Shown one piece after another: positions 27,601 through 64,000 of a DNA stretch of 64,000 bases. Origin of the DNA: Effrenium voratum (Eukaryota > Sar > Dinophyceae > Suessiales > Symbiodiniaceae); assembly GCA_963377175.1 (NCBI GenBank), contig CAUJNA010000186.1, forward strand, positions 181,001 through 245,000, in the 5' to 3' direction. The translations under genes and the position numbers were made by a program. Positions within the stretch are counted from its first letter, which is position 1; each line of letters starts with the position of its first letter. The notes below the pieces were generated by a model. The model was not told the DNA's origin, made no database searches, and saw nothing but the letters and a program-made list of their open reading frames with translations.

Positions 27601-30600
27601 GGTTTGGGTTTTGTTTTTGTTTTTTTTGTATGTTTGTTTTTGTATTTTTTTTTTGTTTTTTTTTTTTCTTTTTTTTTTTTTTTGTTTTAGTCGTTTTTTT
27701 TGTTATTTTTTTTTTTGTTTCCATTTTTCGTTTTCCACCAGGTCCACTCCTTCCATACATTATTACGCATCCATTCTCCAACACTGTTCCACCCGCTTCC
27801 ACAAGCTGCCAGCAGTGTCGCCGTAAGAGCAGTTTGGCAGTTTCAAGGGAAGCCGATGGAAGCTAAGGGGCGCCAGACAACACAAGCAGACTGAACACCC
27901 CGCATCTGTTGACCGTGCGCGGCACAGCGTCGCGAGGCATTTTGCAAGCGTAGTTTGGCAGTTTTAAGGAAGGCCGAGTGAAGCCAAGGGACTCCAAACA
28001 ACATGAGCAGATTGAACAACCCACAGCCGTGCAGCGCGCGTGGCCACGCGCTTCGCCCTGTTTTTCTCTCGCGCACCAGAGCGTAGCTCCGGGCGCCTGA
28101 GTGTCCCAGTCCGAGGCAGTGTCTGCTGCAAGTGAAACAGAGGGAAGCCGAGTGAAGCCAAGGGAAGCCAAACAAAGCTAGACAACACGAGCAGATTGAA
28201 CAACCCACTCCTGTCGACCGCGCGCTGCACGCAGGGCCGTGCCTAACCCAGGCAGGGTCGTGGCACAAGCAACGTCAGGTGTCACACAGCGCCTGAAAAA
28301 TGTTCGTCGCACAAGCAGCAACATGTTTCACATAGCAGCCACCAAGAATGTTCATCGTGCTTGCAGCAACACGTTTCACGCGGCAGCTCGTGATGACGTT
28401 CGCCGCAGAAGCAGCAACATTTCTCGCGCAGCAGCTTTCAAAAACATGCGTCGCATCAGCAGCAACATGTGTCACACAGCAGCCACTGCAAACGTCAGTC
28501 GCTCAAGCAGCAACATGTGTCACGCAACAGTCACGTCGGACTAGCAGCAACATGTATGACGCAACAGATTCGTCGCAGTAGCAGCGACGGAACTTTTTTT
28601 TCGTCGCATAGCCTCGCAGGCCAGTTGCAAGAGACCAAAAAAAAGGTAAGAGTAGGAAGCAAGGTCCACTTCAGCAACAAGCCCTTGGCTTGGCGCCAGG
28701 TGGTTGGAAACCAGCTCTGTGGGCAAGCCAACCCTTGAACCGTTTCAGCCAAGCAAAGCGCCTCAAACAAACCTGTCGCTGAGGGCTGTTTCAGTAGTCT
28801 TGTGTTTCCTCACCGCGGCGCGACTCTTTCACTGTAAGACACGAAAAAAGAACGTGAAAACACCCTGGGAATGTCACATGTTGTGCATTATTGCCTACAA
28901 AGGCAGGGCCGACTTGCGGTGTTTTATTCGTAGCAGTTGCAGCTCGCAGCTCAGACTCGTTCAAACTCTTAGACAGCTGGAGCCGCACCTGAAACACGCC
29001 AACAGGCGTCAGCCACATGCGCATAGTCAAGCATCACGCGCGGTCTAGCGCCGGAAGAAGGGGAAAGTTGCCCGCGGGGCGCTTCTACATCACTCGCGTG
29101 TTCGGCCATGGACAAGGAGCTGCAGGCTGGCGACAGTTGCCCACGGGGCGCTGGGAACTGATTTAGCGCGCATGGCAAGCGGGGCTGGGCACCTGGAGAT
29201 GGCTGGTGCCTCTTCCATGCGGTGGCAAGGTACGGGGCCAGGCCTGGAGCAGGTGCTAGGCCGCGCTGGTGTCTGCGTGCTGCAGCGGAGATCTACTTGC
29301 AGGCGCTAGAGTGGCTGTGGGCGGCGCTGGCTGGACCAGATGCCGCAGCAACTGAAGCAGCTTGCGTGCCAGAAACGGAGGCGGAGTTGGAGCGACACCG
29401 AGAATTCGTTCGACGGCGCGGCGGCGTGGAGGCACAGGTTCCAGACGCCAAGCTGGTGCTGTGGAGTAAGGTGCTGGCTGTGGTGGAGCAGCCCAACTGT
29501 CTGGACTCCTTCCATCATGGGACCAGCGCAGAATTGTGGGCGCTCACCCAGCAGTTCGACTTCGATGCTATAGTATGGAGCGGCGTCCCTGACGCGAACT
29601 ACTGGGCACGAACTCAGACTCGTGTCACAGACGCAGAATGCCGGACGGCAGTGGCTCGGCTCCCGACCGTGCTGCAGCTGCTGCACCGAGAGATCGGCAA
29701 CGTGGGGCACTATGATCTGCTCGGGACCGATGCCGTGTCTCCGCAGCCGTTTGCGCGGACACCTTGGGTGAGGCGGTGGGCCGAAGGCGGCAGTGAAGCC
29801 ATATGGGAAGTGCTAGGCATGCCAAGGCGGCCCGAGCGCATCCAGGCTCCAATTCCTGAAGCGGAGGCGGACGTCTGGTCCGAGCCAGAAACCAACAGTG
29901 ACGTGCCCTTGTCAGACAAAAACTCTAACAAAATAGACATGGAAACCGCTAGTGTGCCAAGGCGGCCCGAGCGCATCCATGCTCCAATTCCTGAAGCGGA
30001 GGCGGACGTCTGGTCCGAGCCAGAAACCAACAGTGACGTGCCCTTGTCAGACAAAAACTTTGACAAAATAGAGATGGAAACCGACAGTGTGCAGTCGTGG
30101 GACTCGCAGGATGCCAGCGACGAAGCTGAAGAGCTCGGCCCGGTGGCGGTGGAAGCCAGCAAGACGTGGACCACCCTGGAAGACACAGACATCCACCTTG
30201 CCGAACAAGCGGCATCCCTGCTGCGGCCGACGCCGCTGCTGCCGCCGCCGCTCCCGGCCTGGAGTGCCAGCATGTGCGCGCCTGCCTCAGGAATAGTCTA
30301 CCCCGCCGTGCACTGCGCGTTTGCAGGCTGCGCTTGGTGCAGCGAGATGCAGCCGTGTCAAGAGGCCTCGGGGCACGCTGGAGCGTGGGTGGTGCCAGAC
30401 TTACACTGGACTCGCCTGAGTGGCAACTGCTGCGGCAAGGCGAACACGTGTCTCTGGGCTCACTTGGCCGCGTGCCACTGGGACAGCCTGTGTGCCGGCC
30501 AGCCAGGGCAGGAGTGGTGGCAGGCCAAGAGCCGGTACATGCAAGCCCTTGTTTGCCGAGAGGAGGCATCCGTGCCTGCAGTGGGCTGGAGCGTGGATCG

Positions 30601-33600
30601 GCGCACGCTACGCCGTCTCCAACAGGAGAGACGCGAGGAGCACTGCGTGGCCTTGGTGTGCGCCTGTTGCGCGGGAGTGCAGCCTGGAGGTCCTAACGGC
30701 AACGTAGGATACGTGTCAGTGCGCGAGCTGTTCACAACCGTGTCAGCCGAGAGCTTTGCCGCGAACTGGAGCTTGACAGAGTACATTCGCAAGTACGGCG
30801 AGCACGCGGCCGTGAGAGATCGGCTTCCAGAGCAGGATTGGCAGCTGTCGCTGCCGCCCGATCTGTTTGAGGGGCAGCGAATTCTGTGCTGCCCAGAAGA
30901 CCGCGTGTGTGCCGCGTGTCCAGCCACGCAAGAGCAACTCTGTGCTGAGTGCAAGCTGCCACTGTGCCGGACATGCTGGAGCCGGTTGCGGCAGAGCACG
31001 TGCCCGCAAGTCCCGCAAGCTCTGGCCAATGACAACTGGTACGGGTATCCTCTGAATTTCTTATATCAAGAAAAGGTGCGGTGGATTGAGGCCGCGGCAG
31101 CATGTCCCGTGTGGACGTCCGTGGTGAGTTTCTATATAGAGGAAGATCGCGGGCACCTGATGGAGGAAGAGCTGCGTCGCAGCGACTTCCGCGTGGCCGT
31201 GCGAGGCAATGTTAGCTCCTTCAGCATGCCTTGGGAGGAGATCTACGGCAGTCTCCACCGCTTAGGGGCAGAGGCTGTGCTGCATCAGCTGCCGCACGCG
31301 GTCCCGGTGCTCAACACCATGGTGAAGTTGACAATCAAGGGCATGCGGCACGCCGAGATCGTGGAGTGGGTGGCTGGCGCGAAGCTTCGCCCGTGGATCG
31401 TCGTGAGGTTGTTGGAGCACCTGATCGACAGCGGACATCCCATGTGTGAGGCATGGGCAGACAAAGCCGCGCTCAAAGAAAGCTTGAAGCAGCGGGTGTG
31501 CAGCAGGTACGGCAAAGACGAAATGTCGCCGGTGACCATGGAGGCTGCCCCGATGGCGCGGGAGGAAGCCGACCAAAGCGGCGGAGGGCAGAAAAAGCAC
31601 GCCACACCTGAAGCGGCCAGCGTGCATGAAGTCAACGGCGAGGCCTTTGCTGGCATAGTGCGGCCGCACGTGTTGTCGTCCGACTACACTAGCTCCCAGG
31701 TGCACGACGTAGACGTGCAGGAAATTGTGCAGCTAGCCAAGCTCACCACGCACGTGCAGGTAAAAACCGGGCAAAGCTTCTGGGACCAGTGGCAAAATCG
31801 GTTCGTCAGCTGGGCGTACCCTTTCAGCCTGCCCGCGCCAGTGGGCGGTCCGGATTTCCCGTCCAAGTCGCGGGACCGCAGGGGCAGTGAGGCAGCCGTG
31901 CTCACGCCCTTTGCATACATGCAATCTCTGGCCCGGCGCGTGGAGAGCTCCATTCGCAACTCCTGGGATCTAGTGCCCGGGGTGCGCCGCATCACGATGA
32001 AGTGGCATTCAGTGTGGCACTCCGACCTGTGGCGTCGGCTCAAAGGCAAGCGGGCGGAGCTGAGGGAAACTCCCGATCACGCATGGGTAGAAGCCGCGCA
32101 AAGCCTGTACAAAAAGTTGCAGAAAGGGGTGTACACAGCGCGCCGCAATGTGTGCAAGCCCATCAACTACGATGCGCGGAAGTTGTGGTACGCCAAAGAC
32201 TTGACGCTGCCGGAGCAGGAGCTGCTGCGGGAAGTGCGGCACACGCAGCAGACCATGCCGGGGACGGTGGAGGTCCGTCGCCGCATCGGCCGGTTCTTGT
32301 TCGGGGCCCGGGTGGAGCTAGGAGAGCCGCTGTTCCTGACATTGTCGCCCACCACGCGGCACAACGGCCTCTGCCTCAAGTTCTCGCGATATCGCCGTGC
32401 GGACCCGGCAGCAGCAGGCATGTCCGGGCCATGGTTCGCACGGGACTCGCCTCAGGTGTGGGACACGGCTGATGTCCAAATCGAGCTGCCGAATTATGAC
32501 GTCCGGCGAGAGCTGACAGCCAGAGACCCGTGGGCGGTTGTCGTCGCCTTCCAGGCCATGGTGCGCTTCGTGTTTGGCACCCTGCTCGGCCTGCGCATGT
32601 GCTTCCGATGCCCAAATTGCACGTGCCGCGATCAGACAGGGCACGGGTTTCACGTGACGGGCGGCGTGCTGGGCCTGGTCCGCGCCATGTGCGGCGCGAT
32701 TGAGTACCAAGCAAACTCGACACCGCATTTTCACTGCAACGTGTACTTGGCGTGCGTGTGGCAGCAGCCCCTGCAGAAACTTGCCGACCAGCTGCAGGCC
32801 GAAGTGCTGCGTGTGGCGGAAGTGTTCGACTTTCAGCAGTGGCTGCATTGCGAGGAGCATGTTCTGCACGAGAAGCACCAAGCCGAGGTGCAGGCAGTGA
32901 AAAAAGTCGTGGCTGCAAAACTACCGCGGTCCAGAGAAGGACGCTTTGTGCTTGTGGCCCTGCTTCCTACTGCAAGACACGCAGCCGAGCGCGTGGACGC
33001 AAGATCAAGCAGAACAGGCGGCAGCCACGGATGCAGCGAGGTTCAAGGCAGCCTACGATGCAGCTGTGCAGCAAAAGCTGACGCATCAGCAGCATCACGT
33101 GCACCCGTGGAGTGCCTCGCAGCAAGCCCGCTTGCCGCTGCCAGCGTGCCGCAAAAAGAACGCACCGAATAAATGCAAGCACGGCTTCCCGCGGCCGCCC
33201 AATCCGCGCTGCAGAGTCATTTGCCGCGGCAACGCGCGCAAGTTCAAGCTCAGCACCCGGGGTCGCCGTAATGCGCTGGGCACTGTGCTCGGTCGCCGGC
33301 GCGATCCGTGGCTGTCTGGCACCTGCCGAGCGTTCGCCTTGATGCTGATGGGCAACAGTCACACCGGCCTGAACTACCGCGTGCCTCTGGCGAGCAGCAC
33401 GCATGATCCGGACTGCGCTCGGGACTGCCTTGGGGCGCAGACCGTCCGACGGCTCCAGCGAGCCATCGCCCAAGCGGCTCGCCGTGCCACCAAGTATTTC
33501 ACGGGGTACTTACAAAAACCGCAGCCTCTGGGCCGGAAAGAGCTGCAGCACGCGGCGAGGCAATTGAGCTTCTTGGACACCAAGCCGTGTGAGGGCAAGG

Positions 33601-36600
33601 AGCTGCAGCGATACAGGCAAGTCGTCAACCGGGTGCTGGGAGACCTCGAGTGTCGTTGCTCCGTCCGACCACTCACGGAAGAGTTCATGCTGGCTGGCTT
33701 TTGGGACGTGAGCGAGCCGTCTTCGGCCGAGTGCATTCGCAACTTCTGTGTGGCCCCATTCGTGGGGCACGAGTGGTTGACGCAGCTTGATGCAGTCGCC
33801 GAACAGCGGAAGAAACTCAAGCCACACAGCAAAGGCAACGCAGAGTTCAAGCTGTCTGAGCTGCACGGGTGGCGAGGCACGGACCCACGCGTGTACTTCT
33901 TGTCTCCATGGGAGTTTGTGAAATGGTGGGAAGTGAAGAAGCTGCAGCCGCCTTCTGCGGCGGCCGAAGGGGACGAGCGCGGCCTGAGTGAGTGGAGCCC
34001 CGGACGCTCCCAGAGCATGGCGCAAGGCCAGGCGTCTGCGCCCGCAGACGGCTGGAAGTTCGGACGGGACTATCGCTGGCGCGACCCCTTGCCACCCCGT
34101 CTCGCAGCGAGCGTCCTGCGCCCGCCGTGCAAGAGCCAAACCCAGGCGGCCGCAGCGCACTACCTGCAACGGCGTCAGGAGCCTGTGGTGCCTTTCCCAC
34201 GCCTGTGCCCGCTTCCAAAAAGTGACATGCCCGCAGACACACAAGCACGGTTCCTGAACGTGTATCTGCGACCTTGGACCTTGGATGCGGCAGACGCGAG
34301 CCTGCACGTGCCGCACATCACGGCGCTGGACCTGCCCATTTCCTCCCTGCAAGCAAGTAAGCCACGGCGACGGCTGCTACAAAAGACAGCCCCTGCAGAC
34401 AGAAGCCACAGCGCAGCTTGGCGAGACTATGCGACGCAGCACGCGGTGTCCGAGCACGCTGCCAGGACAATCCGCAACTTCTTGGCCGCGGCCGAATGCA
34501 CGCCTGACGAAGAAGACTTGGAGCAGGACAAGAAGGAGAAGCAATGCGCCGAAGTGGACACGACTTGGGTGGATGTAGCCACAGTTCGCCGACTCAGTGA
34601 GGGCGGCGGCTTCCAGTACTCCAGCCGCACGGCCCCCGCAGTGCGCAACATAGTCCAGCAGTGGCGCACCAATGCCGATGCGGAGCAAGTGGCGGACCTC
34701 GCGCGGTGCGCAGGGGTCCCAGATCCCAAGGAAGCCCTCGGAGCCGGAGCAGGAGATGCACCGCAGGAGCGGCCGAGCGAAGCGCGCGCTCAGCCGGCAG
34801 TGGCGTGCCTGTACGGCAAGCTGAGTGCACAGGCAGCTGCGCTATGGCTGCGCAACTTGCACGACCCCAGCACTCTGGCACGGCCCAGCGCAGAGCAGCA
34901 GGCCTTTTTGCAGGCCGTGATAGATCGCTGCCTGCGGGAAGCATGCGAGGAGGCAGAGGACAAGCCCTTTCGTAGCGAGCCACTGCGTGCCTTCTTGCAC
35001 GGCGTGCCCGGGGCGGGCAAGAGCCAGACCCTCAAGTGGCTGCGCGGCTTTTTCGAAGAGATATGCGGGTGGATGCAGGGGCAAGAGTTTGTGTACTTGG
35101 CCTCACAAAACACCCAAGCTGCGCTGATCGACGGAAACACGCTGCACTCGTTTGCCGAGCTGCAAGTCAAGGCTCCCAAGCAGAGGCGACAAACGCAGTT
35201 TGGCCCCGACAAATTCGTCAAGTACCAACGACTCCGGTGGCTGATAACCGCCTGTTTTGGACGCACGGCGAGGACGGCATGCAGCACTTGTTTGAGCTGA
35301 CAAAAGAACATCGCTGCGTGGACCCGTGGCTGAGCCACGTGCTCTTGCAAGCCCGGTATGGGCGGCTGTCCCAAGAGGTGTGGTGCTTCCTACACGGCTA
35401 TCCCACGCTGCACGCAGGCAGTTGGTGCCCGAACAGCGGCCAGTGCGATCGCGCAGTCGACTGCAAGCAGGACCGGTGCAACGGACTGGCCGCAGCGTGG
35501 CAGCGGGAGATCCAATCCGGCACCCCACGCTCGTGGGACGTCCGCGTGAGGGAGGAGTGTGACGTGTGCGCCACCGAGCGAGAGCGCCGGCGCATCGTCG
35601 CTGGCTCTGCACGTGAGACGCCTGATCCACAGGCAGCTAAGTTTCTAGAAGGACCTTTCGTGCACGGCTTCAACGCGGCCAAGTATGTAGCTGCACTGCT
35701 GCGAGCCCGATGGGTGGCCCACGAGCGGCAACACGTGCTCCTTTGGGTTGTGGCGCAGGATACACCTCTGTTTCAGCTCGAGCCGGAAGCTGCGATCGGG
35801 GAGCTGCAAGCTCGCAAAGAAAACTGGCTGCAGCGCCACGACCAGGCCACTGGCGGCATCATGGGCTTGCTGCCTTTGCGTCCCGGCATGCCGGTTCGCG
35901 TCACGCAGACTCTGCCCGAGCTGCGGCCACTGCGCTTGTTCAAAAACAGTCGCGCGAAGCTGTTGAACTGGTGCTTGCAGGATGCGGATGCTGCGGCGGT
36001 GCAGGCGACTACCGCAACCGAAGTCGTTCTGCAAAGCATGCCGACATGTCTCCTGATACAAGTCGAGGGTGCCACTTGGAAACAGCTACCGAGCCTCCCC
36101 GCCGGGGTCGCATGCATCCGGCCAGTGCAGCAGCACTGGAAGGTCGCTGCGACCGGCAGTGCCACCGTTTTGCGAAGAGGCTTCCCAGTGGCTTGTGACT
36201 ATGCCGGCACAGCGCACTCCTTCATGGGAGCCACACTGCCCGCCTGCACATTCGATCTTGGGTTCTGGGACAGCACGCCCTCGCGAGACGCGCAGCTCAG
36301 TGCCTACATGTGTTTGTCTCGCGTGAAGCGCGCCGAGGACTTGTGCGTGAGCCGGCCATTTGGGCCCAACCTCTTGGGCCAAGGCGATCTCACAGGCCCG
36401 CGCACGCTGCTCGAAACGCACCGGCAGACCATTACCTTGGAAGAAGCCAAGGTGAGGTTCCAGCAGGAAGCCAAGCAACGCAGCCGGCACCCGGAAGTGC
36501 TGCTGAGCTGTCGCCTCTGCAGCGTAGCGCGCGCAGGTCAGGAGTCGCTCAAGCCCCTGACCGCTTGCTTGGCGAACGAAGACGCCGCCCGCTTCAGCGT

Positions 36601-39600
36601 CGTGGCGCAGGGCATGGACAGGGTGTGCCGCGCGTGTCGCGCAAAGTGCCCGGCCGGCCAGTCCCGCCAAGCAGAGTGCGGTGATACTTTGTGCGCATGG
36701 TGCCAAGGAGTGCCAATGACACAGCCAGGTTTGTGCAAGATACGCAGCACCAAGCCTCTCGCCTGCTCCAAGTGCGGCGATGCCGCCAAAAAAGGCCAAA
36801 AGCGCACACTGGCAGACTTCAACTTAGATGAGATTCTCAGAAAGAAACGCACGAAGGAGCTGCGCCGCGCACGCTGCAAGCAGTGTGAAGCAGCTGCGCC
36901 GATCAGAGCCACAAAGGCAGCCAAGTGCAAGCAGTGTGGTCACTGGAAGTCTCGAAGCCACGTGACCGGGCTCGACTCAAGAAGCCAACGAAGGGATCTG
37001 CAGAACCTGTGCCACGCGCAATGCCAAGCCGCCGGCACAGCCGCCGGCCAAGGCGTGCCAGCAATGCGGCAACGCCTTGCCCAAACATGCAACGCCCGGC
37101 ACATGGTGCGACAGCTGCGCCTTCCCGCCGTGCCAGGGCGGGTGCGGACGCGCGCGCCCGCGAAAAAGTGTCTACCACGCCAAAAAGCGCCCTACTTGGG
37201 TCTGCAACAAGTGTGCCGCCAGCAAGTGCGGCAAGTGCGGTCAAGCCCTGCCAAAGACAGCCAACGCAGACTCTTGGTGTGACAGCTGCGCCTTCCCGCC
37301 ATGCCAGGGCGGGTGTGGACAAGCCCGTCCACGCAAAGGAGAGTGCCGCGCCAGAGTCTGTCCCAACTGGACTTGCAACCAGTGTGCCGCAAACACGTGC
37401 AGCCAATGCGGCGGAGGCATGCCAAAGACGGCCAAAGCAGACTCTTGGTGCAACAACTGCGCCTTCCCGCCATGCCAGGGCGGGTGTGGACTTACCCGCC
37501 CGCGAGCGGGAGAGTATCGTGCCAGAGTGTGCCCCAACTGGACTTGCAACCAGTGTGCCGCAAATGCGTGCAGCCAATGCGGCGGAAGCTTGGCAAGGAC
37601 GGCCAACGCAGACTCTTGGTGCAACAACTGCGCCTTCCCGCCATGCCAGGGGGGGTGTGGGCGAGCGCCCCCCCGCAGGGATGAGTACCGCGCCAGACGT
37701 TGGCCCTCCTGGGTGTGCCGTGAGTGCGCGCGCAAGCCAAGTGAGACTCCCGGCCAAAAGCGCCACAAGCAGGGCTGAGCTTCGACACAAGTCAGACAGG
37801 CCGGACCAAAGTTATGCTCAGGTTGCGCAGGGACTTGGCCGCACAAAGGAATTAAAACTCAAAAGCGAAGTTTCAAGGCAAGTGAGAAAAAAACTTCCAG
37901 CCACAGGAGCAGAGCCAGCCAGAACGTGGCTCCGGCCATGCGAGCATGCAGCTCGGCCCAAGCGTGCTGCTCGGACAAGCCTAGCTTGGAGCAAGCGTCA
38001 TTATCGTTCAAGACGTGTTGGCGCGGCAGAAAGAAAAAGGCCGTGGCAAACATGTGTCACCCAAGTTGGGGCAAGGGGAAGTGCAGACCATGGGGAATTT
38101 CCGGGGGATGCAGGTGCTGCCAGGATGTTGTCCACTACGGGCGCCCCCCCCCCCCCTCAAAAAACCGCTCGGGTTTTTGACTCCGCACGGAAAGTGTTTA
38201 AAAAAAAGAAGCCTCAATTTTCCATACATTATCCAGCTGTTTTCCATGCATTTCCATCCTTTGTCCATGCTCTTACCGGCACATTTCCCCACATTTCCCC
38301 ACATTTCCCTTACCGGCACGGACAGCGCCCCCTGCATGCTCCAGCAACTTTCCATGAAGTTTCCATCCATTTTCCAGACATTTGCGATCCATTTCCAGTC
38401 ACCTTTCCCTTCATTTCCCCACACGTCCCTGAACGGCGTGGACAGCACCCCCTGCATCGACTGCATCATCCGAAGCAATGTCCGCCATGGATGCTCAATT
38501 GTTGCACTTGATTGCAATCCTTTTTCCATTCATTCCAGCAATGCATTTTCCAGGAACGCCCGGACAGCGGGAACGAAAAGGGAAAGGAATGCGAATAAAC
38601 AATTCATGGGAAATGGCTGGATGGAATGGGCCGGAAAAAGGATGGACAAAAAGGATGCAAAATTGATGGAAATGAAGGGGCGTTGATGAGGAACGGTTCC
38701 CGTCACGTTCTGCCCGTGCATTTTCCTGCATCTCGGTTTCTCTCCAGTGCCCTCTTCATTTTCGTGCAACTCCTTTGACTTCAGCCCCTTGTTTCGCATC
38801 GCCAGCATGCATAGCATCATCCGCATCATCCGGGATGATGCTGGCAATGCTGGGGGTGTTGCCCAGTATTATGCACCCCCCAAAAATACTCGTTTTTGGA
38901 CTCGTTTTTGGATGCTGCGGGGAGATGCTACAAAAATCGCCTAAACCAATCCGCAAATCCTTCGCCCCTTATAAGGGAGGGCCAGCATAAAACGTATGCG
39001 CATGTTCTGGTCATGGTCCGCGCATGGTCGGCGGCATGGGGCGCGCGGCCTTATACCTGAAGGTAAGCCCTAACGGGCTTTGGCCTGCGGCCCGATCACG
39101 TCCGGTGGCCGGATTTACACGCTGACGCGACACAGCCGGCCACCGGGCACCTTGACCTGGCCGTTCTGTCACTTCCCTTTCCGTTAATTCCGATCAGTTC
39201 CCGAGATTTGAACCTCACTTCCTTTGCGCGTGTTTCCTGCATCTTCGATAGTTTCGCCGTGTCAGTCGCAGTCCTCCCCTCTGTTCTTTTCAGCTTCCGT
39301 GACTTCAGTCCGCCTCCCATTCCACGTCAGTTCCCTTCATTTCGCAGTTTCTCTTCGTCTTCCATAATTTCCACAATTTGTTTTCGTTTCCTTCTTCGGT
39401 TCCCCTCGTCTGACCTTGCATTTGCCTGCATTTTGGCTTCTCTCCAGTGCCCCCTTCAAAATTCGTGCAATTCCTTTGATGTCCATTTCGTGGACTTCCC
39501 AGTCACGCCTGCTTCCAATTTTCCGCCCCTTGTTTCGCATCGCCAGCATGGATAGCATCATCCGCATCATCCGGAATGATGCTGGCAATGCTGGGGGTGT

Positions 39601-55483: not shown

Positions 55484-55626
55484 TGTGAATTCTCCCTGTA
55501 ATTTGTATAGTTTGAAGCCAGGGTGTTGAACATGTTGTGCATGACCGGGCCATTCTGGTACGAGGGCCCTTGAGTCATAGCGCTCGAAGCGAAAAGTGAG
55601 AGCCCGATTTGCTTGCTACATTCACA
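55484..55626 (+). repeat. Probable 5' LTR of the third copia element
   Basis: Begins TGTGAATTCTCCC and ends TACATTCACA (TG...CA), one base before a tRNA-Met primer site. 143 bp is short but within the copia range. The 3' copy would be outside the window, so the left limit is only inferred. Confidence 0.45.
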
Positions 55627-55627
55627 T

Positions 55628-55638
55628 TGGTAGCGGAG
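55628..55638 (+). other. tRNA-iMet-type primer binding site
   Basis: TGGTAGCGGAG matches the complement of the initiator tRNA-Met 3' end (TGGTAGCAGAG) at ten of eleven bases. It lies one base after the inferred LTR end, the usual place for copia minus-strand priming. Confidence 0.5.
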
Positions 55639-55678
55639 CGTTGGTTGAACGACTCCGGGCAAGTCAGGGCGGTAGGTC

Positions 55679-58600
55679 ATGTCAGTGGCCGGGCTTCGTT
55701 TCAGCCCGGACCACGGCGCTCGTGCAACAGACCCTGCTGAAACTCGGAGTGGTTCATACATCTACGGTGGAGACCCCGCTGGTTTCCATGATTGGGAATT
55801 CCGCACCAAGCTTCGCTTGAGGATGTATGAGGAGTTTCTGAGAACCAAGAAAACAGCCAAGCGGACTGTGAAAGAAGAAGGAGAAGAAGAAGAAGAAGGT
55901 GGTTCTGCAGAAGCTGAGGAGGCCAAGGAGGCTTTTAGGGACACGAGGTCGGAGCTCACGCACCGGATTGTAGAAGGACTTCGGGGCGATGCGTTCTTGG
56001 TGGCCCGTGATCTCGGACTTGACGCCTTGAGTGAGCCGCAAGGTATTGAGAATTTGATCAAGCAAATGAGAGACATGGTTTTCCCAAGAGCCACTGAGGA
56101 AGCTCGTGAGCTGTTTCGTGTTGGTCAGAAACCTCAAGGAGCACTTTCCCGGCAGAGAGGGGAGAGTATGATCTCGTACATTTCTCGAAGGCGCAGATGG
56201 TGGAGGACCCTTGTGGAGATGGATCCAACGCTGTCGTTGTCTGAGCAGATGCGCTCAGAGTTGATGCTTGAGTTGGCGAACATCTCACACCAAGAGATCC
56301 TTGTGATCAGAGCCTGTTCGGAGGGCGGAAGAGAGCTGAGCAAGGTTGAAGAGGCCCTGATCAGGAATTACGGTGGAGTACATCTTCGAGAAGGAAGAGT
56401 GCTGGGCCCGTCTTCGACTGGGAAAGGAGGCTATCAGACAAAAGGTAAGGGAAAGTCTTCTTTTCACAGCTCTTCATCTTCGTCTGGCAGTGGTTACTGG
56501 CGAAGGTCCGCGCTTCCAGCTTGGTCAGGGTATCCTGAATGGGAAGAAGGGGAGCCCATGAATCCGCATGAAGAAGCTGAAGATGAAGGTTTCGGGTACA
56601 CAGTGGACGGTGGTGTTGACAAAACACCGATGACCGATCCTGAAGAGATGCCCGATTATGGCGAGTTTGAAGAGATAGGTGATGAAGGCGAGGCCACTGC
56701 TCTCAACGCCATGGAAGAGTTGGATGCGGAGAGCAGTGATCCGCTCAGTGTCGGAGAAGCCATTCAGCTGCAGCTGGCAGCGAATGCCGCCTTTGGTAAG
56801 GCCAAAGGAAAAGGGGGAAAAGGACCGAAAGGAAAAGGGAAAGGAAAGTTGGTTCGGTCACATCTGACACTGGAACAGCGCCGATCAAAGTTGAAAGAGT
56901 TGAAGAAGAGAAGCAAATGCCTCAGGTGTGGAGGGCACGGCCACTGGGCCGGTGACCCTGATTGCAAATTTCCGGGCCCAAAAATTAAAGGTGACAAGCC
57001 TGCTGGATCAGCATTTGTGGTTTATGACAGTGACACTTCAAGTGATCACGAGATTTGCTTGCAGGCAGGCCAGGCACCTGAAGGCGTGGCTTTGGTAGTG
57101 TCCAATTCCAGGTCGTCTAGATCAGGCAAGGGTTACACAAAGGCGAATGCGTCGGATTCTGTGCCTGTTCCACGGAGCCCACCTAGATCGTCTGACCCTG
57201 TGCCCATTCCCACGAATACCCCTTCCGAGGATCAAGATGCAGTCACGAGAAACAACAGAGCTCGAATCGTGGTTCGTGAGGGGGAGATGGATGAGGACCT
57301 GGAAGGCGGTGAGCAGAGGATGCTTCTCGGGAAGTACAAGGGAATGACATACCGGATTGTCATTCAAAGCCCTCAGTATGTAGCATGGGGATTGTCACAG
57401 AAGAAGCCATCGCAGGTTTTGCAATCTTTCCTCAGCTGGGTCATGAAGCATTACGTTGTTGAAGGAAGCACATTGACGAAGAGATCGCTTTTAGCTGTTC
57501 CCCCGGGCACGTACAACCCCATGGAAAAGCCATCTTCGTCAAGGAAGCCACCGAATCCACCCCTTGAGAAGTGTGTGGAATGCAAGTATTTCTCGTATCA
57601 AGGATCAACGGGATATACGGTTCGGAAAACTTGCAGAGATTGTGGCCATGCGACCACAACGAAACGGGAAGACAAACCAACTCATTCTGTTGAGAACTGT
57701 CCGCATGAGCTGGTTGATCACAGAGGTTCTTCCCGGTCGACGTTTCGAGTGTGGTGCAAGCAATGTGCTAGCTTCATCAGTGAGATGCCCATGGAAGATA
57801 GAAAGGAAATGAAGGCAACATCAAAGCAGGTTGAGCAGGCCAACATCATTGTGGCACCCATCATACAAGGACTTGCTTCAGCAGATGCCCAACATAGGTT
57901 GTCAGAAAGTCAAGTGGAGGAAATTGTAGGTACGTTTTCAGCGGTTGTGACCCAATCTCTCGCGGCAGGTGAGGAGCTGGCAGCTGCAGACCTGCACATC
58001 ATCCTGCAGGACTGTGTAGTGGAAGTGACGCAAGGGGGTGAGCCAGCATCACCACCCTGGGAAGCGGTCGCTTATCACGGGATGGACGACGAGATGAAAC
58101 CTGACACAGTGTCCGTTCAAAACTTTCCTGTTGTTGACATTTATGCAGAAGACGAAGAGGATATGTGGGGAGCGTTGGATGAGGGTTGCAACAGCACGGT
58201 CCACTCATCTTATTGGGCAGATGAGATGGAGAAGAGGCTTAGGAAGCAGGGCATGAGCATGCCATGGATTAACAAGGAAACGAAGAGGTTTACTGGTTTG
58301 GCCTCGAATGCGGTGACCTTGGGCATGCGAAGAATGCCGTTTGCGATGTGTTTGACCAATGATGAAGTTATTTCAGGCACTTTGGAGTCACATGAGTTGA
58401 ACTCTGGCAAGACACCTTTGTTGATTTCCTTGTATGCTCAAGCGACTCTGGGCTTGGTGAAGGACATGGGTGCAGGAACAGTCAACATCAAGGGACATGG
58501 CGAACTCAAAATCCACAGATGTTCACGAACAGGGCTGATGATGATTAACCTTTCGGAATTTCAGAAGTACCAGCAAGTTAGAAAACTGCCCAAATCAGTT

Positions 58601-59707
58601 CGTGCGCTCAGAGCTGAAGTGATTTTTCCTCCTGCGGCAATGGCTGGTGGTAAGGATGAGCCTGATTGTGTGCATCTCCTGCAGGGGACGTACAGGTACA
58701 ACAGGGTGCCGGAGTTGGTGTGCGACACTGGCACTGTGGTGTTCTCGGTGGGGCTGCGTTGGGATTTTGCCAACCACGAGATGATGAAGATGGAGAGAGA
58801 TCACGACGTGGTGATGGAGATCTTGCCGGAGAACCGCAGGAGTTTGCCGACGGTGATGCTGGACTGCAGGGGCATTCATGACCCTGATTGCGGCCGGTAT
58901 CGAGGACACGTTGGCAGGCATTTGCAGATCATCAAGGGGGTCTACACACTTGAGATGCGTGTTCTGTTGAGACGAGCCCTTGCTTTTTATCAGGAACATG
59001 GCGGTGCATGCAATGTGGTATTTGTATGTAAGAGCGGGCGTCATCGGAGTGTCTCCGGTGCGACCTTGTTTGGTGCAATGCTGTGCAGGATGGCTGAGGA
59101 CAACTGGCGCATTGTGCACTATCACAGTGACAGCTGGAGACGAATGGACTGCGGCGGTCATTGTGAGATGTGCAACATGACGGAGGCGAATGCGAACAAC
59201 CTGATTGAGATGGTGGAGAGTTCGTTCCCGAAGGGGCAGAGAAGCGCTCCCAAGCCGGCGGCTCCTCGAGTTTCGACGCCGAAGCCTGTGCTCATGAAGA
59301 TTCAGTCCAAGGCGAAACCCCAATCGGTGGTGAAGGAGAACCCGGTGAAGGTGCCAGCTGTTGAGGAGAAGAATCAGGAGATGGAGCAGTTGAAGGCCGA
59401 GGTGTCTCGGCTTGCTGGCATGGTGAAGGGACTGGTGGAGCGCGACAAGGCCAGGAGCTCGAGGGGCAGGTCACGGACACCTCTCAGGCGTGCGAGCCGA
59501 TCCACATCGTCGAGGACGTTGGAGTTGGGTAGTGCGCCATGGAGGGAGTTCGACAGCCGCGAGTCGCGAAAAAGGAAGGCAAGCTCACCGGAGACGATGA
59601 TTCTGCGGGGTCAGCGCGTGGTGACACGGACTTCATTGGCGATGTTGACCCTGATCGTTGTGGACCTGGAGATTTCTCGGCACGATCAACGAGACCATTT
59701 GAGATGA
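55679..59707 (+). CDS. Copia Gag-protease polyprotein with RapZ-C-like domain
   Basis: 1342 codons from the first ATG after the primer site. Residues ~60-75 are Glu-rich; ~100-240 look like a copia capsid; a Gly-Lys stretch precedes the zinc knuckle at 414-429 (CLRCGGHGHWAGDPDC). About 632-695 form a second Cys/His-rich zinc region (CVECKYF, TCRDCGHA, CPHELVDHRGS, WCKQC). The retropepsin region starts near D834 in ALDEGCNSTVHS, where DEGCNS stands in place of DTGA. Residues ~1040-1175 resemble the C-terminal half of bacterial RapZ: VMLDCRGIHDPDCGRYRGH at 1060-1078, VVFVCKSGRHRSVSGA (CKSGRHRS 1117-1124) and HYHSDSW 1147-1153. The tail is basic. The product would package RNA and process itself. 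The RapZ-like part is unexpected here. Confidence 0.75.
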   Translation: MSVAGLRFSPDHGARATDPAETRSGSYIYGGDPAGFHDWEFRTKLRLRMYEEFLRTKKTAKRTVKEEGEEEEEGGSAEAEEAKEAFRDTRSELTHRIVEGLRGDAFLVARDLGLDALSEPQGIENLIKQMRDMVFPRATEEARELFRVGQKPQGALSRQRGESMISYISRRRRWWRTLVEMDPTLSLSEQMRSELMLELANISHQEILVIRACSEGGRELSKVEEALIRNYGGVHLREGRVLGPSSTGKGGYQTKGKGKSSFHSSSSSSGSGYWRRSALPAWSGYPEWEEGEPMNPHEEAEDEGFGYTVDGGVDKTPMTDPEEMPDYGEFEEIGDEGEATALNAMEELDAESSDPLSVGEAIQLQLAANAAFGKAKGKGGKGPKGKGKGKLVRSHLTLEQRRSKLKELKKRSKCLRCGGHGHWAGDPDCKFPGPKIKGDKPAGSAFVVYDSDTSSDHEICLQAGQAPEGVALVVSNSRSSRSGKGYTKANASDSVPVPRSPPRSSDPVPIPTNTPSEDQDAVTRNNRARIVVREGEMDEDLEGGEQRMLLGKYKGMTYRIVIQSPQYVAWGLSQKKPSQVLQSFLSWVMKHYVVEGSTLTKRSLLAVPPGTYNPMEKPSSSRKPPNPPLEKCVECKYFSYQGSTGYTVRKTCRDCGHATTTKREDKPTHSVENCPHELVDHRGSSRSTFRVWCKQCASFISEMPMEDRKEMKATSKQVEQANIIVAPIIQGLASADAQHRLSESQVEEIVGTFSAVVTQSLAAGEELAAADLHIILQDCVVEVTQGGEPASPPWEAVAYHGMDDEMKPDTVSVQNFPVVDIYAEDEEDMWGALDEGCNSTVHSSYWADEMEKRLRKQGMSMPWINKETKRFTGLASNAVTLGMRRMPFAMCLTNDEVISGTLESHELNSGKTPLLISLYAQATLGLVKDMGAGTVNIKGHGELKIHRCSRTGLMMINLSEFQKYQQVRKLPKSVRALRAEVIFPPAAMAGGKDEPDCVHLLQGTYRYNRVPELVCDTGTVVFSVGLRWDFANHEMMKMERDHDVVMEILPENRRSLPTVMLDCRGIHDPDCGRYRGHVGRHLQIIKGVYTLEMRVLLRRALAFYQEHGGACNVVFVCKSGRHRSVSGATLFGAMLCRMAEDNWRIVHYHSDSWRRMDCGGHCEMCNMTEANANNLIEMVESSFPKGQRSAPKPAAPRVSTPKPVLMKIQSKAKPQSVVKENPVKVPAVEEKNQEMEQLKAEVSRLAGMVKGLVERDKARSSRGRSRTPLRRASRSTSSRTLELGSAPWREFDSRESRKRKASSPETMILRGQRVVTRTSLAMLTLIVVDLEISRHDQRDHLR

Positions 59708-62332
59708 GCTTGCAATACAATCAGAGGGCGCAGCTTCAGTTGACGCCGAAGTACTGGTTGCAGAAGTTCGTGGAGAACGTCAATCATGATCACGAAGGAT
59801 GGATTGGTCCTTACGAGATTGATCAGTCGAAGAAGGAGAAGCCAGTGAAGGAGATGAACTATGAGATGAATATCAAGTATTATCTGCGGGTGCGTGGCTA
59901 TGGTCAGTCGTTCAGGATGCCGCAGGAGTTCATCAAGAGAGGCTGGCGGAAGACGGTGTTTGCTCGGCCCAAGGGTGGCGACCACGATGAGTGGCGCCTG
60001 TTGGTGCAGGATGTTCCCGCGAAGATGCGGGTGGACTATCCGAAGGATAGCATGGCCGAAGTTGAAAAACGAGCAAAGGGGAAGTCGAGAACAGCCAGCG
60101 TAGTCACAGGTGCACGCAAAAGCCCCCCGTTGAAGGAATGTACGCTGCTTTCTCCTTCAAGTGATTCATCGTTGGAAGCAACGGCTTTGATGGCGATTGG
60201 TGAAAGCCACAAAGGAACCATGAGTAAGGGACAGAAGAGGGAATTCGTGAATGGGCTTCGCACCATGAAGGAGAGGGATGCCGATTTGCAGCATGTTCTG
60301 GGTAAACGGGACATGCCGTTGGTTTCCCCGGTGCACACCGTTCTCATCACATCGGATGGTCCATGTCACCGTACTCATGGGATTCAATGTGTGTCGGTCG
60401 GCAAGGACGCCCACAGGGCTGACCTGGCAGCCATCAAGAAGGAGCTCGATAAAGGCGGCGCATGCACGGTTGTTGTGGCCATTGAGTACTCTGACTGGTC
60501 AACTTCCTTGAATCACTCGGATATCATGGACATGGTGATTTCGCATTGCGAATTGGTAGGAGGAAGATATTTGGAAGTGGATCTTGCAGAAACAAACAGG
60601 TGGTCGCAGCACTCCATTCATCTGTATCCGGAGTTGTGTGTTTCAGACGTGGGGTATGTTACCAACGACATTTTGCTGGGAGAAGCATTCGAAGCATGGG
60701 TGAGTATGAGTTACCCGTCATATGTGCCCAGGTCGATCGGTGAGGTGTGGACCTCGGAGTTCCTGGACTTCCTGAGCGAGAAGGCACATGAGGCTTCGGC
60801 ACAAGACATGTTGTCGGTTGGTTTCCCCGTTGAAATGCAAGAAGATGAACAGGAAGAGGCAGTCACCTTTGACATGCCGGATGATCCTGATTCGGATTCA
60901 CAGAGGGATGGAGTGTTCCATCCTGTGTTGAGAGGAAATGCGGAGATGGCGGAATGGGAAGTGCTTGATAGCATAGACATTCCGGATTTGCCAGCCAAGG
61001 AGCAGGAAAGGAGGAAGGCCTGGCGGGCGATACCGCAAAAGGTAAGGGTGGCGGTGCGACGCTTGCACAGGCAGTTCGGCCACCCGGCGCCGCGAACGTT
61101 GGAGAGCTTGTTGAGAAGCGCAAAGATCGCAAAGGTATACATCGAAGCACTCAAACTGCACAGATGCCCAGATTGTGAGAATAGTGCGCCGAAGAAACCC
61201 ACACACAAGACCATGCTGCCGCACAGGTACAAATTCAATCACACCTTGGGGATAGACTTGTTTGACGTGTCGGATGCCAAGGGTGACAAGTATCTGGTGC
61301 AGAACATGTTGTGTTGTGGCACAACTTTTCAGCAGGTGAAGGCCCTAAGAAAAGGGAAGGGGCAAGCTTCAAGTGCAGAATGTTTGAGAGCATTGGATGA
61401 ACGTTGGTTCGCCTGGGCATGACATCCGTCAGAGCTGGTGTCGGACCGAGGACTGCACAACCGAGGAGTTCTGGCGAAGTACATGTCGGCAAATGGAATC
61501 CAAGTGTTTCACGCTCCGTTGCAAACGCCTGAAGCCATTGGACGTGTGGAACGCCATGGGGGAATCATCAAGGCAATGTATAGGAGAGTGTGTAGTGAGA
61601 CACCACCAGTCGGCATTGATCAGGTGAACCAAGTGCTGACGCAATGTTGCCGGATCAAGAACTCCATGCACAGAGTGGGCGGCTACAGCCCATCGCAATG
61701 GGTTCTAGGTACATGCCCGAGAGGAGCACCTAGCTTCATGGATGAAGAAGGTTGGACCGACCTTGGAGCGATTGGGGACAGGATTGATCCCGATTCCATC
61801 TTTGCACTTCAGCACAAAGCGAGAATGGAAGCAAAGAAGGCATTCGTAGAACTCGATTGCAGCAAGCGCGTGCAAAGGGCGTTGCTCAGGAACGCGCAGC
61901 CGATTTATGAGAACTACGAGGTCGGGGGACATCGTGTGTTTTCGCAGAGATTTCATGGGGAAGACCCAATGGAGTCCGGCAAGCAGAGTGATCGGGAAAG
62001 AAGGTGACAAGAAGGTTTGGGTGTTGTGTGAAAACATTCCAGTACTTGTTGATGGGAGAAATCTGAGACCGGCAAATGATGCTGAGGCCCTAGGGAGGTT
62101 GATTCTTCATGGACATGACATTGTGCCAGAGGAGATCATCAAAGAACACGGGCAGCAGGCGTTCGAAGACGCGAGTCAGGTCCCAGTTCCCGAAGGTGAA
62201 GTTCCAAGTGACCCGGAACCGGAAGAGACTGAGGGATCCGGATTGCCGAGAATCCCAGAACATGGGTTGCTTGAAGATGAGGATGAGCCTATGAGAGCTG
62301 CGAGGACACGGGATGCCGAAATCGCAGGCTGA
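59539..62332 (+). pseudogene. Copia integrase region, one shift from gag frame
   Basis: Overlaps the gag ORF by 169 nt in the -1 frame; an A5 run at 59569-59573 is a possible site of one lost base. The N-terminal ~480 residues are of unknown function (GACTVVVAIEYSDWSTSLNH, YLEVDLAETNRWSQHSIHLY). The integrase zinc site is H510, H515, C543, C546. The core's first Asp is D573 (LGIDLFDVSD), the second is in SDRG at 61444 and Glu in GRVERHG at 61549, 35 residues on. TGA at 61420-61422 (WAWA-stop-HPSELVSDRG) breaks the core between the first and second Asp; the same frame then continues. An extra G near 61925 shifts to GDIVCFRRDFMGKTQWSPAS. A second TGA ends it at 62330. Confidence 0.7.
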
Positions 62333-62335
62333 AAC

Positions 62336-64000
62336 GTGAGGCCGCGAGTTGAAAGAACATCTCCTGTTTTGGAGCCAGATCCTGAGAGAGGGACGCTTGG
62401 CAGTGAACCGCAGTCCAGACGCACGAGCGCACAGTTGTTGGATGATTTGCCTGAATCCATCGGGAGACACTTTGAGCAAATGAGTGGGCAACAAAGTGCG
62501 AGCTCGGAGGACGCAAACGTGACTGCCAATGTGGCGTCTGGCCATGTTCATGTGAGTAGAGAGAAGTACGTAGCATTCATCGCAGATAGGGTTAGCGAGA
62601 CAGAGAACGCGCAGAGAAACAAGAATGGGGTGCAAGAAAGGTTGCTCGTATATGACGAAGCAAGTGAGGAGGTGCAACGTGCATTGACAGAGGCCAGAGC
62701 GGCCGAATGGGAGAAATTCCAGAAGTTCGGAGCAGCTGTTCCCATTGACGGGGAAGAACTGAGAGGTCTGTTGGATGCAGGTCATGTTGCCATTCCGTCA
62801 AGATGGGTCGAGGTTGACAAGAACGATTTCCAGAGAGGTCAGCCTAGATATAAACCCAAGTACAAGAGCCGTTTGGTGATATGCGGAAATTTTGAGGATC
62901 GTGAAGGACTTCGAGGTGACGCACCAACTGGTGACGTCGAGGCTCACCACATAGTATGTGCTTGGGCAGCAGCTCATCAGGTGGCGGTGAAGTCCTGTGA
63001 CATCACCAGCGCGTATTTTCAGGCCCGAGAGCTGGATCGCGTGTTGCTTATGCGACAGCCACGAGGAGGACTTCCGGACGTTTCTCCAACGGCGTATCTA
63101 CTGGTTAGGAAACCGGTCTATGGCTTGACTGACAGCGGTCGAGGTTTCTGGTTGCAGGTGAGTACGGATGCAGCGGCATGCGGGTTGATATCGAGTAGGA
63201 TTGTTCCTGCGTTCTATTACCATGTTGGGGATGGCAAAGTAGATGCAGTGATGACCACTCACGTGGATGATTTCTTGTATGCCCACACTGAAACTGGAAA
63301 GGTTACGATCGAGAACTTGTTGAGCAAGTTTGTTGTCGGAAGCAGCGAGGAAGGCAATTTCAGGTATTGCAGAAAACGCATTAGCCAAGAGAAGGATAGC
63401 TCGATCAAGATCGACGTCGATGACAACACTAGGAAGCTGAGCATGATCAAGATCGAGGTAGGCAGAAAGTTGACCGATGCAGTAAACCCATTGGAACTGT
63501 CGCAGTTGAGGTCAGTGGTTGGATCTCTTTCGTGGATTGCCAGACAGGGACGCCCTGATCTTTTGTACAGGACGTCGAGGTTGCAGTCTTTGACCAAGGC
63601 AGCCACTGTGGCTACCTTGAAGGAGGCCAACAAGACCGTCGAGTGGCGTTGGAAGGCATTGGGTCGAGTCTGTATTTCCATGCGGGAAGACTTGACTGGC
63701 AAAATGTCGGTATTCTAACAGTCACAGATGCGTCATTTGCAAATGAGGAGAACCATAAGTCACAACAGGGGCGTTTCCATTTCTTGGTGTCCAGTGAACA
63801 GGCAAGGGGTCAGAATTGCGAGACGTTTGATGTAGTGCCTTTGGGATTTGCATCGAGCACGATAAAGCGAGTCTGTCGTGCAACTATGCAGGCAGAGACG
63901 TATGCATTGCAGAATGGGATCGAGAGCGGAGACAAGCTCCGAGCAGTGATATGTGAGACACAGGGACGGTTGCAGAATTTGACTGGTTGGTACGAGACTA
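62336..64000 (+). pseudogene. Copia reverse transcriptase and RNase H, truncated by window
   Basis: Same frame as the integrase tail, separated from it by the TGA at 62330. RT reads VEVDKNDFQRGQPRYKPKYK, SRLVICGNFEDREGL, then CDITSAYFQARELDRVLLMR with the first Asp at 62999 and MTTHVDDFLYAH with the Asp pair at 63266-63271. VYGLTDSGRGFW stands where copia usually has LYGLKQAPRxW. RT stops at 63718 after a shift near 63693; the other frame continues NVGILTVTDASFANEENHKS (RNase H first Asp) to MQAETYALQNGIESG (catalytic Glu) near 63890 and runs off the window. Confidence 0.8.

Follow-up and report, generated by a model that had tools for sequence, protein, structure and literature searches.

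A RapZ-C-like domain under purifying selection in a copia-type retrotransposon of the dinoflagellate Effrenium voratum

Retrotransposons are already known to take up foreign domains, in dinoflagellates as elsewhere: PMC5890265 describes SymbioLINE-Dnmt and SymbioDIRS-Dnmt3, which carry a conserved DNA methyltransferase (DNMT) domain in the coding region of Symbiodinium retrotransposons. An orchid Ty3/Gypsy element, a long terminal repeat (LTR) retrotransposon, likewise bears an extra conserved domain, an m6A (N6-methyladenosine) demethylase, and the accessible text of that report states that such domains are rarely retained (PMC9289625). Those that do persist hint at factors limiting the element in its host. 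Here we describe a comparable case in a 64,000-nucleotide stretch of the Effrenium voratum genome (contig CAUJNA010000186.1, positions 181,001 to 245,000; hereafter, the window), where the polyprotein of a copia-type LTR retrotransposon contains a real domain resembling the C-terminal half of the bacterial protein RapZ; this domain is selected in the window's lineage, and a phosphate-binding role is proposed for it. The Symbiodinium elements differ in being LINE and DIRS rather than copia and in having captured a DNMT unrelated to RapZ-C, and PMC5890265 states that the abundant LTR Copia elements contain no DNMT domain; the orchid element differs in superfamily, host and domain. A literature search, with most subscription papers and preprints outside its scope, returned no paper joining RapZ with a dinoflagellate, a retrotransposon or a giant virus. 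The selected domain ties a fold of bacterial riboregulation to eukaryotic mobile elements and opens the dinoflagellate RapZ-C family to direct binding and transposition tests.

In Escherichia coli RapZ, according to PMC9841335 and PMC5737377, a pocket formed by H190, T248, G249, H252 and R253 runs along the backbone of the small RNA and has been observed with sulphate or malonate, and the substitutions H190A, G249W and R253A abolish GlmZ cleavage. The window domain lies in the first open reading frame (ORF1; 1342 residues) of the element, and the initial annotation had recognized it by eye from motifs that are indeed present, in frame +2, at ORF residues about 1037-1178, where they had been placed: LDCRGIHDPDCGRYRGHVGRH (58859-58921), VVFVCKSGRHRSV (ending at 59053) and HYHSDSW (59117-59137). 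RapZ_C (PF22740) was the sole Pfam family matching the domain slice P0001 (window 58550-59320) at E <= 1, with E 9.8e-4; its 19.7 bits, and the 17.2 bits of the whole ORF1, fall under the gathering score of 27. At the same threshold the full ORF1 matched two families, RapZ_C and Csm1_N, and no kinase-like family corresponding to the N-terminal half of RapZ. The domains of L012 and L013, which represent a second lineage of this element, exceed the cut-off, at 30.4 and 30.5 bits.

Homology to RapZ-C was shown through relatives. A hidden Markov model (HMM) built from six other, non-copia RapZ_C-bearing sequences of the same genome, some of them in repeated units, scored the window domain at 58.2 bits; the best score among shuffled versions of the window and L012 domains was 8.3 bits (1,813 scored of 2,000 shuffles), and the reversed window domain scored -1.9 bits, so that the resemblance first seen by eye exceeds chance. 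Single-sequence phmmer searches of PDB sequences with the window slice or with L012 did not find RapZ, nor did a profile of the copia rows alone reach it there; NCBIfam matches of the slice were all far below cut-off, and PHROGs gave none. Structure prediction, which the initial annotation had put forward as a check, bore the comparison out at the level of a predicted model: the family model matches the E. coli RapZ C-terminal domain (PDB 5o5s) over 111 residues at 16% identity, and a model of the copia rows alone was of poor quality. In addition to this fold, the domain shares with RapZ the D-x-R motif, the C-x-x-G-x-H-R-S-V loop and the order of these elements. The identification as RapZ-C-like is thus very probably correct, RapZ-C homology within the copia-type polyprotein being supported by sequence, predicted fold and, in the window's lineage, selection.

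Purifying selection, the other check that had been suggested, is evident in that lineage, with ratios of non-synonymous to synonymous differences (pN/pS) of about 0.1. The window domain differs from that of C890 at 28.5 synonymous and 9.5 non-synonymous positions over 120 codons (pN/pS 0.09, p 6.6e-12) and from that of C2966 at 45 and 19 over 142 codons (pN/pS 0.11, p 2e-17). Pooled over 55 pairs of 11 near-copies, which are not independent and for which rates are uncorrected, pN/pS was 0.12 for residues 61-215 of P0001 and 0.18 for the stretch before them. Pairs with L044, L045 and L047 were compared after codon-by-codon alignment, and L046 was left out. The domain is kept under purifying selection in the window's lineage. 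In the second lineage, pN/pS values of 0.51 and 0.41 were not significant, and short reverse transcriptase comparisons, each with 4 to 9 differences, gave 0.09, 0.58 and 0.58, numbers too small for ranking the domains. The linker after the domain (window 59195-59320) has a pooled pN/pS of 2.1, with very few synonymous changes.

The pocket of the window domain matches the RapZ loop C-T-G-G-x-H-R-S-V in part, strictly speaking, in that C, the second G, H, R, S and V are retained and K and S occupy the positions of T248 and G249. Of 15 further genomic copies that were translated, 13 have an identical CKSGRHRSV loop, the exceptions being L045 (H to R) and L047 (V to A); the loop is also altered in the database fragment P0005. 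Since six of its residues are kept, the domain is likely a phosphate-binding module. Several observations call for caution in extending this to RNA binding. The site aligned with RapZ His190 is occupied by Asp; 7 residues downstream, in the H-x-G loop, stands a His that is nearly invariant. Nor is the window slice positively charged overall (20 K+R, 22 D+E, isoelectric point (pI) 6.6), although those of the other five copia rows, which have different flanks, are basic (pI 9.2-9.8). According to PMC7073468, it is the glucosamine-6-phosphate (GlcN6P) pocket of RapZ that is conserved across diverse bacteria, and the RNA-binding domain is confined to Enterobacteriaceae, a restriction that speaks against transferring RNA binding from E. 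coli without scrutiny. Given the conserved GlcN6P pocket, the charge of the slice and the Asp at H190, the label of RNA-binding domain in the initial annotation is not upheld. The domain further departs from RapZ in the absence of H190, T248 and G249, in the lack of a kinase half in ORF1, in its setting within a retroelement polyprotein and in a Cys-rich extension, found in the dinoflagellate domains, that may form a metal site.

We propose that a copia-type lineage of this dinoflagellate acquired a single RapZ-C-like domain, placed between the gag-like part and the integrase, and that this domain would bind a phosphorylated ligand through the C-x-x-G-x-H-R-S-V loop, serving the polyprotein as a phosphate-recognizing accessory module. 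The likeliest target would be a phosphate backbone, either in RNA of the element itself or in its primer/complementary DNA complex, and the domain would aid the selection or handling of that RNA or complex; a small phospho-metabolite would be the second choice. RapZ-C-like identity and this phosphate-module mechanism, taken jointly, have about an even chance of being right. RNA packaging and host RNA control, both raised in the initial annotation, are hypotheses. A more specific possibility, which we consider doubtful, is a RapZ-C-type riboregulator domain acting as a working part of the polyprotein, its phosphate loop reading a structured hairpin of the element's own RNA so as to pick that RNA for packaging or hand it over to a reverse transcriptase or nuclease, much as RapZ presents GlmZ. 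If so, the dinoflagellate RapZ-C family would be a eukaryotic RNA-handling family of mobile elements, and perhaps of giant viruses.

The main rival to a phosphate-binding module invokes the C-x5-R form of the loop and takes the domain for a Cys-based phosphatase-like enzyme, rather than a binder, with the 5' ends of RNA or a phospho-metabolite as conceivable substrates. The phosphatase profile DSPc matched L001 and L009 below cut-off and, in Pfam, neither the window domain nor L012 at E <= 1; the match to dual-specificity and Cys-based phosphatases is far weaker than that to RapZ, no catalytic acid was identified, and we regard the enzyme as unlikely. Alternatively, the domain might sense or sequester a small host phospho-sugar or nucleotide and couple transposition to the state of the cell. 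The bacterial conservation of the GlcN6P site, the largely conserved loop among dinoflagellate domains and the presence of glycosyltransferase-like fusions among the genomic relatives (glycosyltransferase models below cut-off) favor such a sensor; however, it has no known ligand, H190 is not kept at the aligned place, and retroelement accessory domains elsewhere mostly target nucleic acid or host control, so that this reading, too, appears improbable. Chance resemblance or a functionless broken passenger would fit the sub-threshold Pfam score of the window copy alone, its broken pol and the failure of the copia rows alone to reach RapZ, but the former was rejected on the shuffle control with the non-copia HMM and the latter on pN/pS among copies, and with the fold match of the family model added, and 4 of the 12 full-length genomic matches of the domain lying within open frames of >2,500 codons, this explanation is largely refuted and very improbable.

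The features of the element are collected in Table 1. It is a copia-type LTR retrotransposon, with an RVT_2 reverse transcriptase downstream of the domain and an LTR upstream. ORF1 starts 52 bases 3' of the LTR, which has TG...CA ends; the window shows the 5' LTR only, the 3' LTR lying beyond the window end, where 7.5 kb were read directly downstream (L031 2-7501) as N. In copy C3478 both LTRs are present, 99.3% identical and flanked on each side by the 5-bp target-site duplication AGTAC. The stretch directly after the LTR we take to resemble the complement of the 3' end of initiator tRNA. The CCHC-like knuckle of ORF1 fell below cut-off in Pfam (zf-CCHC, E 0.11), as did the integrase match upstream of the reverse transcriptase, and the protease-like region that the initial annotation had seen before the domain was not recovered, window 58217-58600 matching no Pfam family at E <= 0.5. 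In the window copy, frame changes from ORF1 to ORF2 and further on, together with a TGA at 61420-61422, disrupt pol, but the RapZ-C-like domain is whole.

Table 1. Features of the copia-type element in the window
Feature	Position	Strand	Remarks
5' LTR	55484..55626	+	143 bp; TGTGA...TCACA ends; matches 5' and 3' LTR of copy C3478
Primer-binding-site-like stretch (TTGGTAGCGGAGC...)	55627..55645	+	directly 3' of LTR
ORF1: gag-like part, CCHC-like knuckle, RapZ-C-like domain, linker	55679..59707	+	"gag-like" from position
RapZ-C-like domain, fold-matched part	58724..59134	+	
First conserved loop, D-x-R ... D-P ... H-x-G	58862..58921	+	aligned with RapZ DVRFLPNP and following loop
Anion-binding-type loop CKSGRHRSV (C-x5-R)	59027..59053	+	aligned with RapZ C247-T-G-G-x-H252-R253-S-V
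Cys-rich extension C-x3-C-x2-C	59150..59173	+	past RapZ-aligned part; in alignment A4 second Cys invariant, third nearly so
ORF2, 627 residues; integrase part begins	59539..61422	+	gag_pre-integrs E 0.035, below cut-off; ends at TGA
Integrase-like piece	61438..62007	+	by position and eye; no Pfam match; at least 128 genomic matches
Reverse transcriptase	62336..63718	+	RVT_2 (PF07727), E 1.3e-11, 45 bits, over cut-off

With PF22740 as query and a limit of E <= 1e-3, the 1.16-Gb assembly yielded 26 matches, each of them over cut-off; the window domain is not among them. Two of the 26, L012 and L013, belong to the second lineage of the element, L012 matching ORF1 piecewise over residues 1-1197 and L013 reaching up to 77% against the integrase pieces. 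Compared with the window domain, those of L012 and L013 show 44-46% and 41-44% identity, respectively. In a tree of 12 rows, in which long branches leave the deeper order unsure, the five copia-type domains group together (96/95), with L002 next (81/86). The genomic integrase matches came from 150 scored of 344 candidates; among the matches listed, the rows of RapZ-C-bearing lineages (64-99% identity) are set apart from those at 53% and at 39% or less, and all rows at 64% or more adjoin RapZ-C matches except two pieces on C3298 (93% and 86%). The partial row at 53% (C3100:718894) lies 18 kb from a RapZ-C match, and two members of the group at 39% or less come from fragments on C1330 and C1567 read in another frame. 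Apart from these two, the rows in that lowest range never adjoin a listed RapZ_C match, which casts doubt on the domain being general in copia elements; the sequences of those elements were not read, and a diverged domain may be present there. Several copies and fragments of the second lineage crowd on contig C3100 (374630-427958 and 700407-719118).

The simplest account is a single gain in the ancestor of the RapZ-C-bearing copia clade from the RapZ-C family of the host, which is present at many genomic places and probably was the source, L002 being the nearest relative found. A viral route may also have been taken, a possibility kept because proteins named RapZ-C occur in giant viruses. Such RapZ-C/RNase adaptor proteins made up 5 of the 12 best-ranked viral structure matches (BFVD, model m08a6bf382abf), from Klosneuvirus, Marseillevirus LCMAC201, Pithovirus LCPAC001, Harvfovirus and Hyperionvirus, with Foldseek probabilities of 0.69-0.99 and E values of 0.019-0.23 that are not significant on their own; they are short, separate proteins of 118-238 residues and not retroelement domains. 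Protein-database searches, limited in candidate length and requiring shared words, yielded few relatives (2 among 791 candidates, each an E. voratum gene model; 3 of 624; and 1 of 48 with L002 as query), so the domain may also occur in other dinoflagellates; scans of viral contigs and prokaryote genomes confirmed none. The E. voratum gene models P0002 and P0003, which over long stretches are nearly identical to ORF1, skip window 58892-59056 (55 residues, including the phosphate loop) in intron-like fashion, which may be why the domain went unannotated.

RapZ_C also occurs in other repeated units of the genome. Eight dispersed copies of a 3.4-kb unit (L009:2302-5684, L010, L011 and L024-L028), with pieces 95.8-99.7% identical to L009, each bear an open frame with a RapZ_C match that exceeds the Pfam cut-off, and the unit is possibly another mobile unit with this domain. 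In L003-L006 (larger stretches L033, L022, L021 and L032), frames of 440-807 residues fuse RapZ_C to a glycosyltransferase-like part, read in L005 from models below cut-off; these loci lie in long repeats, one 9.2-kb piece at 99.7% and others at 97.7-100%. On C163, C523 and C3671 (L015, L029, L016 and L017), long repeats of up to 9.8 kb at 98-99% combine a RapZ_C fragment with an ORF for a serine resolvase (Resolvase, E 5.8e-11 in L015). Each contig has a pair of them, oppositely oriented and separated by 31-33 kb, an arrangement that looks like a large element bounded by long terminal inverted repeats. Elsewhere in the window, an ORF at 2-1117 matches the Tpt1/KptA RNA 2'-phosphotransferase over cut-off (E 1.1e-8), and a second such match adjoins the L009 unit (L009:8270-9667, E 3e-7). 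Helitron-like ORFs occupy 29222-37282, with Helitron_like_N below cut-off (E 3e-5) and DUF6570 over it (E 2.1e-5).
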